Assembly: GCA_016213735.1 (NCBI GenBank)
Contig: JACQZU010000019.1
Coordinates: forward strand, 1 to 64,000
Direction: 5' to 3'
DNA from: Acidobacteriota bacterium
GTDB lineage: Bacteria; Acidobacteriota; Holophagae; Holophagales; Holophagaceae
Length of the DNA: 64,000 nt
Shown one piece after another: positions 34,030 to 37,447 of the stretch. Under the pieces are notes generated by a model. The model saw only the letters and a program-made list of their open reading frames with translations. It was not told the DNA's origin and made no database searches. Within the stretch, counting starts at the first letter, position 1, and each line of letters begins with the position of its first letter. The position numbers were made by a program, and so were the translations under genes.

Positions 34030-34581
34030 ATGTCCCTGCTTCTTCGCACCACGGCCCTCACCCTCGCAGCCCTCGGACTGGCCTCGACCCAGGTCCGGGC
34101 GGAGGACCCCCGCTTTGGGGTCCAGGCGAGCGCCAACATCCCCAATGGGGATCTGAAGGACGCCGTGGACAACAAGCTCGGCGTGGGCGGCGGAGCCCAC
34201 TTCACCTTCGACTTGGGCGACGGCCACATGGTCCGGCCGAGGATCGACTACATCTTCTTCCCCGAGGCGACGATTTCCGCCATCCGGAACAAGGTCAACG
34301 AACTCAGCCTGGGTGCGGACTACCTCTACTTCCTGGAGGGCAAGCCCCTGGGGCTCTACTTCACGGGCGGGCTCAGCTTCAACCGGTGGAAGGCGGATGT
34401 CACCAAGGCCGGGGTCACCTCCTCCGACAGCAGCAGCAAGCCCGGCTTTGCCCTGGGGGCGGGATACAACTTCAACGCATCCTTCGGAGCGGAGGTGCGG
34501 TTCACCGGGTCGAAGTACAGTGTCGGGTCGAAGGACTTCAGCGCCAACGCCCTCCAAGCGGGGGTCACCCTGCGCTTCTGA
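34030..34581 (+). CDS. Small outer-membrane beta-barrel protein
   Basis: A 183-residue protein with a signal peptide (about 1-24, cut after QVRA). The rest is alternating amphipathic beta strands and ends in Phe (GVTLRF), as outer-membrane barrels do. The size suits an eight-stranded OmpX/OmpW-like barrel. GGAGGAATC precedes ATG 34030. The precise role is unknown. It is monocistronic, between two terminators. Confidence 0.8.
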   Translation: MSLLLRTTALTLAALGLASTQVRAEDPRFGVQASANIPNGDLKDAVDNKLGVGGGAHFTFDLGDGHMVRPRIDYIFFPEATISAIRNKVNELSLGADYLYFLEGKPLGLYFTGGLSFNRWKADVTKAGVTSSDSSSKPGFALGAGYNFNASFGAEVRFTGSKYSVGSKDFSANALQAGVTLRF

Positions 34582-34742
34582 TCCCGGGCTTGCCCGGATC
34601 TGCCCTTCGCGGGGCCCCGGTGACCGTTCGTCAAGGCTTCCCGCCCGATGAGAAAACGCGGGTGGTGCCTGGCGTGTCCGGGCCATACCTTGAGGGCTGA
34701 CCGCACCGGGTGCGTACCGGCTGCGATCCGTAGGGAGGGGGA
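34582..34742 (+). other. Gene-free stretch after the barrel gene
   Basis: No ORF with a ribosome-binding site is seen. A hairpin CCGGGC-TT-GCCCGG (34583-34597) follows the stop directly, and further small hairpins (for example CGCAC-CGG-GTGCG near 34701-34713) come before the terminator at 34743. It could be a long 3' untranslated region or a small RNA that ends at that terminator; neither can be decided from sequence. Confidence 0.4.
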
Positions 34743-34769
34743 GGGGGCCCGTCATGGGCCCCCTTTTTT
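34743..34769 (+). terminator. Rho-independent terminator
   Basis: GGGGGCCC-GTCAT-GGGCCCCC followed by six T. It lies 160 bp past the barrel gene stop, so it ends either a long 3' untranslated region of that mRNA or a separate small RNA. Confidence 0.85.
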
Positions 34770-34890
34770 CCGTGGGGGCAAACGGCGGCTTCCCCGCCTG
34801 GGCCCCCACACCCCGCGCCCTTCGCAGGGACACCCTGCTCAGGGCTTTCCTTTCCGTGGGGGCAAACGGCGCCTTCCCCGCCTGGGCCCC
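34767..34890 (+). repeat. Tandem 40-bp palindromic repeat (two copies)
   Basis: Copies at 34767-34806 and 34851-34890 differ at one position and start 84 bp apart. Copy 1 can form an eight-base outer stem GTGGGGGC/GCCCCCAC (running two bases past the repeat end) and an inner GGCGG/CCGCC stem. A 16-bp block CCCCACACCCCGCGCC at 34804-34819 recurs at 34945-34960. The layout resembles REP-type palindromic units. No coding sequence is supported here. Confidence 0.7.
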
Positions 34891-34960
34891 ATGTATCGGA
34901 CGCGGTGCGTCCTCCCGCGCGCTTCGCTTGCGGGCATGGAGCCTCCCCACACCCCGCGCC

Positions 34961-35032
34961 GTCAACCCGGATTCGGGTCCCACTTGGCGCTGCAGGGCAG
35001 CGTCAAGTGTGGGGCACCCGAACCGGGTTGAC
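34961..35032. repeat. 72-bp near-perfect palindrome
   Basis: The left arm 34961-34993 and right arm 34997-35032 pair almost completely around the loop AGG, with only a few bulges and one mismatch. The outer arms are GTCAACCCGG and CCGGGTTGAC. In RNA this would be a very stable hairpin from either strand; in DNA it could extrude a cruciform. It lies at the convergent 3' ends of the barrel and UbiD genes and may terminate UbiD transcription or be the end of a REP/MITE-like element. Confidence 0.75.
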
Positions 35033-35051
35033 ACCAGGACCGGCGAATCCC

Positions 35052-36518
35052 CTAAAACCCGTATTCCTTCCAGCGGTCTTCGATCCTCCGAAGCACTTCT
35101 CCCGGAAAGGCCAGATCCCGGGGCCACTCTCGCTGGAATCCATCGAAGGCCTTGTTCTTGCGCGTGGCGTCGAGGCCGACCTTGGATCCGAAGGCGAAGC
35201 GGTCGGAACTGTGGTCCAGCACGTCCAGAGGGCCCTCGGTGAAGAGCATGTCCCGGCGGGGGTCCACGTTGCTGGTGACCCGGAAGAGGACCTCCTGGAG
35301 GTCGTGGGGATCGATGTCCTCGTCCACCACCACGATGCCCTTGGTGAACATGATCTGTCCGGTGCCCCAGAGGGCGTTCATCACCTTGTGGACGTGGCCG
35401 GGGAATTCCTTCTTCATGGAGAGGATCACCAAATTGTGGAAGGCGCCGGCTGCGGGCAGGTGCATGTCCCGGATCTCCGGGAGCAGCAGGCGCAGCAGGG
35501 GCAGGAAGATGCGTTCCGTGGCCAGGCCCAGGTAGGCGTCCTCCTGGGGTGGGCGGCCCACGATGGTGGCAGGGTAGACGGGGTCCTTCCGCAGGGTGAG
35601 GGCCTCGACGTGCAGCACGGGGTAGTCGTCGGCGAGAGAGTAGTAGCCCGTGTGGTCCCCGAAGGGCCCTTCGCGGCGGAGTTCCGCCGGATCCACCCAT
35701 CCCTCGATGACGATCTCCGAATCGGCGGGGACCTCCAGGTCGTTGCTCACGCAGCGAACCATCTCAACGCCCTCGCCCCGGAGGAAGCCGGCCAGCATCA
35801 GCTCGGAAATGAACGGTGGCAAGGGCGCGGTGGCGCAGTAGGTGAGGGCGGGGTCCCCCCCGAAACTCACGGCCACGGGCATCCGCTCCCCGGGCGCGTA
35901 CCCGTGGCGGGCCCGGGCCCCATCGTGGTGGAGCTGGGTGTGGAAGCCCAGGGTGCGCTGGTCGTACACCTGGAGCCGGTAGAGACCCATGTTCCTCCGC
36001 CCGTCCTTGAACCGCACGTGGCTGAGGCCGAGGGTGATGAAGGGGCCGCCGTCTTCGGGCCAGGTGGTCAGTACCGGGAGGGCGGAGAGGTCCACTTCGT
36101 CCCCTCGCAACACCAGTTCCTGGCAGAGACCCCTCCGCACGGTCTTCGGCATCCAGCGGTTGACCTCGGCGAGCTTCATCAGCTTTCCCAGCTTGTCCAG
36201 GAGGGAGAGCCCACCGTGGGGAACGGCCTCCTGGAGGAGACGCTCGATGCGGGTTCCGATGGCGTCCAGGCCTTGGGCTTCGCGATCCACCCCCAGGGCC
36301 ATCTCCATGCGCCGCAGGCTCCCGTAGACATTCATCGCCACCGGGGTTGGAGAACCCTTGGGGTGGTCGAACCGGAGGGCCTTCCCGCCGCCCGGATCCT
36401 TGGACACCCGGTCGGCGATGGCCCCCATCTCGAGGAAGGGATCCACCTCCGCCGAAATGCGGACCAGCTCCCCGGCGGCCTCGAGCTGCTGCAGGAAGGT
36501 CTGGAAGTCCCGGCCCAT
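35052..36518 (-). CDS. UbiD-family decarboxylase
   Basis: A 488-residue prenylated-FMN-dependent (de)carboxylase. It carries [13 protein letters not shown], the region supplying catalytic Glu and Arg, and [17 protein letters not shown] near the end. UbiD relatives act in ubiquinone or in futalosine-type menaquinone synthesis and in aromatic-acid metabolism. In a bacterium of this type a menaquinone role is plausible but not shown. GGAGGC precedes ATG 36518. No UbiX partner is next to it. Confidence 0.9.
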
Positions 36519-37114: not shown

Positions 37115-37372
37115 ATGGCACACAAAAAAGGCGTCGGCTCCAGCCGCAATGGTCGCGATTCCCACTCCCAGCGCCTGGGCGTGAAGGTCTTCGGCGGCCA
37201 GACCTGCACCGCCGGGTCCATCATCATCCGGCAGCGCGGCACCCGTTTCATCGCGGGCGTGAATGTCGGCATGGGCAAGGACCACACCCTCTTCGCCCTG
37301 GTGGACGGCACCGTCCGCTTCCAGGACAAGGGCCAGCACGGCCGCTTCATCCACGTGGATCCAGCCACCTAG
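37115..37372 (+). CDS. rpmA: 50S ribosomal protein L27
   Basis: An 85-residue L27, [24 protein letters not shown]. The Lys-rich N-terminus begins directly with MAHKKG, without the cleaved leader found in Firmicutes. The tail reaches the peptidyl transferase centre. An ACGAGG stands upstream. A strong terminator follows 41 bases after the stop. Confidence 0.98.
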
Positions 37373-37413
37373 TCCCGGGGGGTCCGCGCTGCGCGCCGTG
37401 CCCCCGACCCCGC

Positions 37414-37447
37414 GCGCAGGCCGGGCCCAGCCCGGCCTGCGCTTTTT
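37414..37447 (+). terminator. Rho-independent terminator after rpmA
   Basis: A 13-base perfect stem GCGCAGGCCGGGC/GCCCGGCCTGCGC with loop CCA and five T. It separates rplU-rpmA from obgE, whose start is only 35 bases further, so obgE expression must depend on read-through or on a promoter inside this area. Confidence 0.9.

Follow-up and report, generated by a model that had tools for sequence, protein, structure and literature searches.

The described bacterial repeats closest to the sequences considered here are the REP and BIME elements, with which they share short GC-rich palindromes, many copies, an intergenic position by gene 3' ends and the assembly of several palindromes into mosaics. 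REPs are divided into the GTAG and CGTC superfamilies (Di Nocera, 2013, PMC3733652), and the termini of GTAG REPs can themselves supply a stop codon (PMC3733652). As summarized in PMC12306157, which cites earlier work, E. coli REPs lying less than 16 nt from a stop codon lower translation, while by the figures given there and in the work it cites no more than about 11% of the REPs in E. coli lie within 15 nt of a stop codon. Another point of reference is the intrinsic (rho-independent) terminator, with its GC-rich stem and T-rich tail behind a gene. Here we compare with these systems a palindrome-dense cluster of 290 bp (34743-35032) in the first 64,000 nucleotides of contig JACQZU010000019.1 (assembly GCA_016213735.1; hereafter the window), whose host belongs to a Holophagaceae genus related to Geothrix as judged from the UbiD tree and its relatives.

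Organization of the cluster

The cluster is flanked on the + strand by a gene for a predicted small outer-membrane beta-barrel protein (34030..34581; identified from the look of the sequence, tblastn and syntenic relatives) and on the − strand by a convergent gene for a putative UbiD-family decarboxylase (35052..36518; sequence reading, tblastn relatives and synteny). About 160 nt (34582-34742), containing the small palindromes TGATCCCGGGCTTGCCCGGATC and CGCACCGGGTGCG, separate the upstream stop codon from the native intrinsic terminator at 34743..34769 (+ strand), which has an 8-bp stem (arms 34743-34750 and 34756-34763), a 5-nt loop and six T residues (34764-34769). This terminator was read directly from the letters; an automatic terminator scan of the region gave no match, probably because in that scan the G-rich 5' flank is taken as the pairing partner of the T run.

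Following this ordinary terminator, three dispersed palindromic elements make up the mosaic sequence from 34767 to 35037, with all parts on the + strand. Its basic unit is about 84 nt long, is repeated head-to-tail, and consists of a P1 hairpin, the spacer ACCCCGCGC and an H2 hairpin with the core GGC-NNA-GCC and the tail GCTT. Unit 1 comprises P1 (GTGGGGGC...GCCCCCAC, 34772..34809), the conserved spacer (34810..34818, the final two bases of which are part of the H2 stem) and H2 (GCCCTTCGCAGGG-ACA-CCCTGCTCAGGGC, then TTTCC, 34817..34845). In unit 2 the second P1 copy (34851..34890) is opened by element B, so that the P1 5' arm GTGGGG (34856-34861) pairs with CCCCAC at 34945-34950. Element B itself (34887..34942, limits approximate) sits within the apical portion of P1 and consists of a CATG...CATG stem holding two small hairpins, GGACGC-GGT-GCGTCC (34898-34912) and CCCGC/GCGGG (34914-34934). 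The P1 closing 3' arm and spacer of unit 2 follow at 34945..34960, and the position of H2 is taken by element C (34961..35037), an imperfect 72-bp palindrome with the conserved 3' flank ACCAG, beginning 19 nt past the ubiD stop.

Every feature named in the preliminary description was found in place on direct inspection of the sequence, with corrections to two of them, the 16-bp block and the 72-bp palindrome. The two 40-bp repeats (34767-34806 and 34851-34890, 98% identical) are the P1 part of the longer unit, and the shared 16-bp block CCCCACACCCCGCGCC does occur at 34804-34819 and 34945-34960 but is the P1 closing 3' arm plus spacer, not a separate motif. The 72-bp palindrome lies at 34961-35032 as described; it is not near-perfect, having about 28 pairs with internal loops and ungapped 21-nt arms that are 76% complementary. 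The symmetry is well beyond chance: set against 100 dinucleotide shuffles, the fold of the 305-nt region is lower by 6.3 SD on the + strand and by 6.0 SD on the − strand, the 72-mer folded as DNA lies 9.0 SD below its shuffles, and the P1 pattern had no match in shuffled sequences. The statement that the cluster holds no supported gene also stands, as its open reading frames (e.g., 34648-35031) only read through the repeats and support for them was not found. A search of the window against Rfam 15 gave no match above the gathering score, and an integron attC site was rejected on reading the sequence, as the RYYYAAC/GTTRRRY core is absent.

Copies in the host genome and their position at gene ends

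The repeat is dispersed, with 67 BLAST matches to the query 34740-35060 in the 3.59-Mb, 28-contig host genome and 45 copies found by a covariance model of the repeat (R1), the first copies of arrays lying behind open reading frames. Arrays consist of 1-8 units, whose H2 hairpins are similar inside one array and dissimilar across loci. Element B is nested in P1 also on contigs C8 and C7 and in Geothrix-group loci; element C recurs at several other places in the host genome, and a model built from three of its copies also matches several genomes of the Geothrix group and of other members of the family. Some ten contig ends lie within or beside repeat arrays (on C1, C2, C4, C9, C10, C11, C13, C18 and, at both ends, C23), and the repeats are the probable cause of these breaks in the assembly; array copy number is underestimated because contigs end inside arrays. 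Other long repeat arrays, carrying a GGACGCGGTGCGTCC hairpin and lying beside tRNA-like sequence, were seen at C7:1-600 (L064) and C21:33.5-34.2 kb (L058), and from their sequence these look like a further repeat family having a module in common with element B.

In many dispersed intergenic palindromes, and in the combination and nesting of P1, H2, B and C, the family resembles REPs and BIMEs. It differs from them in that P1 is preceded by CTCC or a similar sequence instead of an unpaired GTAG or CGTC tag at one end (element C is preceded by CGTC in its window copy, but not in the two other full copies), and in that every array read has its P1 units head-to-tail on one strand, not as alternating inverted pairs.

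The position of the first copies of arrays is tied to the stop codon. Of 71 array-first copies, 45 have a P1 stem that is preceded, at a distance of up to 14 nt, by the stop codon of an open reading frame of at least 60 codons, and in 27 of those 45 the spacing is exactly 6 nt, compared with a stop-codon count of 0-3 at shifted control positions. Because of the way this test is built, all stop-anchored copies run in the same direction as the gene before them. A second count, on model hits that are largely the same loci, finds a stop no more than a few nt from where the model match starts in 52 of 70, and several of the remaining hits have TGA or TAA at the same position where the open reading frame filter failed. 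As in the stop-proximal REPs of E. coli discussed in PMC12306157, the hairpin is near enough to the stop codon to meet the terminating ribosome; in contrast to what that source reports for E. coli, such proximity is the rule for array-first Holophagaceae copies, and the sequences are unrelated. The window array is the exception, being behind a terminator and not at a stop codon.

At one locus on contig C13 (L053; 217094-217138 and 217317-217360), P1 copies lie about 8 nt behind putative tRNA 3' ends (...CCACCA). Translation as the sole anchor is weakened by these two host-genome copies behind apparent tRNA genes, which point to the gene end, not translation alone, as the anchor.

T(G/A)AT precedes many of the arrays, which recalls IS200/IS605-type enzymes and their insertion 3' of a tetranucleotide. 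The idea of pure insertion at a TGAT target is weakened by spacers that lack this motif (TAG|AGT, TAA|CCTGT, TGA|ACATTTC) and in which the distance from the stop codon is nevertheless maintained. The same near-constant spacing bears on the MITE-like relic suggested earlier, that is, a non-autonomous DNA-transposon remnant with terminal inverted repeats and target duplications. The repeats are indeed palindromic, short, non-coding and dispersed, but they are tandem, the array ends read show neither enclosing transposon-like end repeats nor a target duplication, and nothing seen in them points to a MITE; we hold this origin to be highly improbable. No target-site duplication was seen at the array ends read or at the ubiD gap, in a comparison made between species.

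The preliminary description had also proposed looking for a TnpA-REP (Y1) gene. The Y1 transposase domain PF01797 was not found in the host genome at E ≤ 1, in a search in which control genomes were positive, nor in three repeat-rich Geothrix-group genomes (G003, G013 and G021) that are 99-100% complete and carry 17-33 copies each. A true REP/REPIN family, spread by a RAYT (Y1 tyrosine transposase) that has since disappeared, has diverged beyond the reach of PF01797 or works from a place not covered by the assembly, would be in keeping with the T(G/A)AT contexts, with the presence of PF01797 in some relatives, and with dispersed palindromes at gene 3' ends, which are typical of REPs (PMC3733652). 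We nonetheless consider it a doubtful explanation, given the lack of the domain in those four genomes, the few or no repeat copies in the family genomes that do have Y1 genes, the missing GTAG/CGTC tag and the head-to-tail units.

Conservation, gain and loss across the Holophagaceae

A DNA BLAST search for P1 in 59 relatives found nothing beyond one 22-nt match. The idea of a genus-private repeat was overturned by a relaxed architecture pattern and the covariance model, both of which find the architecture in relatives. The relaxed pattern, used in place of a strict one that missed Geothrix entirely, matches in 28 of 61 Holophagaceae genomes, with a reversed control near zero, and R1 matches in 46 of the 61. 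Sampled genomes of genus g4, taken to be Geothrix, carry 5-44 R1 copies and those of other Holophagaceae genera 0-6, the copy counts in these family and phylum surveys being lower bounds. Within a sample of 199 Acidobacteriota genomes, matches at E ≤ 1e-5 were limited to the host genome and 14 g4 genomes, and R1 was not found outside the Holophagaceae. A limited open-access literature search on Geothrix and Holophagaceae repeats found nothing relevant, and the palindromic hairpin-repeat family of the cluster is apparently undescribed.

The gap orthologous to the one beside ubiD has in the Geothrix group the same architecture in other letters (CTCC-GGGGG...CCCCC-GGACCCCCGCGC-H2-GCTT). It is filled by an array right at the stop codon in G. 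paludis, G. terrae, G. oryzisoli, G. fuzhouensis, G. campi, SG200, BP11 and UBA8503, while in G. fermentans, G. rubra and many others it is about 50 nt long with a plain terminator; copies are thus absent from some orthologous gaps, as expected of the dispersing element first proposed. The UbiD tree needs four state changes, of which at least three are forced by well-supported branches, and G. fermentans, with its empty gap, sits inside a filled clade. The window array is probably independent of the Geothrix arrays in this gap because it is placed differently, after a terminator.

A second position tells of vertical descent. The window holds a single P1-H2 unit in the rpmA-obgE gap (37370..37447, + strand), with the model match starting at the rpmA stop codon TAG, and this element is present in most Holophagaceae examined, so that this copy has clearly been vertically retained. 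In the orthologs from 19 species all 13 H2 pairs are intact in 19 of 19, changes occur at three positions and are always double, and the 3-nt loop has 8 different sequences (the P1 region was shortened by hand in a few rows of this alignment, leaving the H2 letters unchanged). The unit may be a terminator or attenuator within the ribosomal-protein/GTPase operon. In several species that lack P1-H2 here, G. fermentans included, the gap has either a plain hairpin or an unrelated palindrome (CACGAAG or CACGGAG type). Replacement of P1-H2 by a long unrelated palindrome (CCACGAAGGACACGAAG / CCACGGAGGCACGGAG type) was seen in the rpmA-obgE gaps L146, L151, L152, L154 and L168, where apparently one palindromic element of the 3' end has been swapped for another.

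The core GGC-NNA-GCC hardly varies across 52 distinct H2 hairpins, while the outer stem changes in a compensatory manner. For 20 units, a comparison largely among paralogs, paired cells amount to 87% versus 75% after shuffling, and the covariation score is 0.27 versus 0.09 for shuffled alignments and 0.04-0.10 for slid partners. The comparison of rpmA-obgE orthologs is the cleaner of the two tests. The structure of H2 is under selection, although compensatory change could also come from DNA-level template switching. The earlier idea of a structured RNA is in part borne out, as compensatory changes keep the hairpins, and a single copy conserved at one place without such changes is ruled out.

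These data also bear on an origin without mobility, by which the units would be tandem terminators inherited vertically and duplicated locally, their likeness reflecting ancient descent and convergence to good terminators. The vertical rpmA-obgE copies and the behavior of the units as 3'-end hairpins agree with it. Against it, P1 is near-identical at unrelated loci of one genome yet diverged between genera, the ubiD gap is filled or empty among close species, and elements B and C are nested in P1 arrays; we therefore regard it as quite improbable.

A proposed double-hairpin module for transcript ends

The explanation we favor, and consider likely, is that the cluster represents a single array from a non-coding, REP/BIME-like repeat family of the Holophagaceae, a double-hairpin 3'-end module acting as terminator or stabilizer that spreads independently of a RAYT. 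The family is set outside the described REP families, which it resembles in placement: the REP/BIME likeness noted earlier holds for dispersal, palindromy, mosaic structure, position behind genes and presence or absence in orthologous gaps, and fails for RAYT, tag and alternating orientation. In place of these, the Holophagaceae unit has a head-to-tail double hairpin with a conserved spacer and a usual 6-nt spacing to the stop.

As a rule the P1-H2 unit follows immediately on a stop codon and is read on the same strand as the gene before it; P1, spacer and H2, as read from their sequence, would act as RNA at transcript 3' ends. H2 with its T-rich tail is a candidate terminator, possibly weak or bidirectional; like an intrinsic terminator it lies behind a gene and joins a GC-rich stem to a T-rich tail, and unlike one it is coupled to P1 and a sequence-conserved spacer, tandem and dispersed, with a weak T tract (GCTTTGCTCT). 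P1, as a stable hairpin, may block 3' exonucleases or make contact with the terminating ribosome. Arrays would grow locally through slippage or unequal recombination, and we infer that spread between loci takes a route other than a resident RAYT. The window array is likely redundant for the upstream gene because it lies behind the native terminator, and it may serve the 3' end of the convergent ubiD transcript. A more specific version, in which a mobile double-hairpin module tied to gene ends is put exactly behind stops and replaces the native terminator, spreading without Y1/RAYT, is put forward only tentatively, as we think it rather unlikely.

REP-like repeats affect mRNA ends and genome plasticity, and the known ones have been attributed to RAYTs or, for the CGTC REPs, left open. 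With a REP-like repeat that is carried across a bacterial family and has no detectable RAYT, both the function of a stop-proximal hairpin and spread independent of a RAYT become testable.
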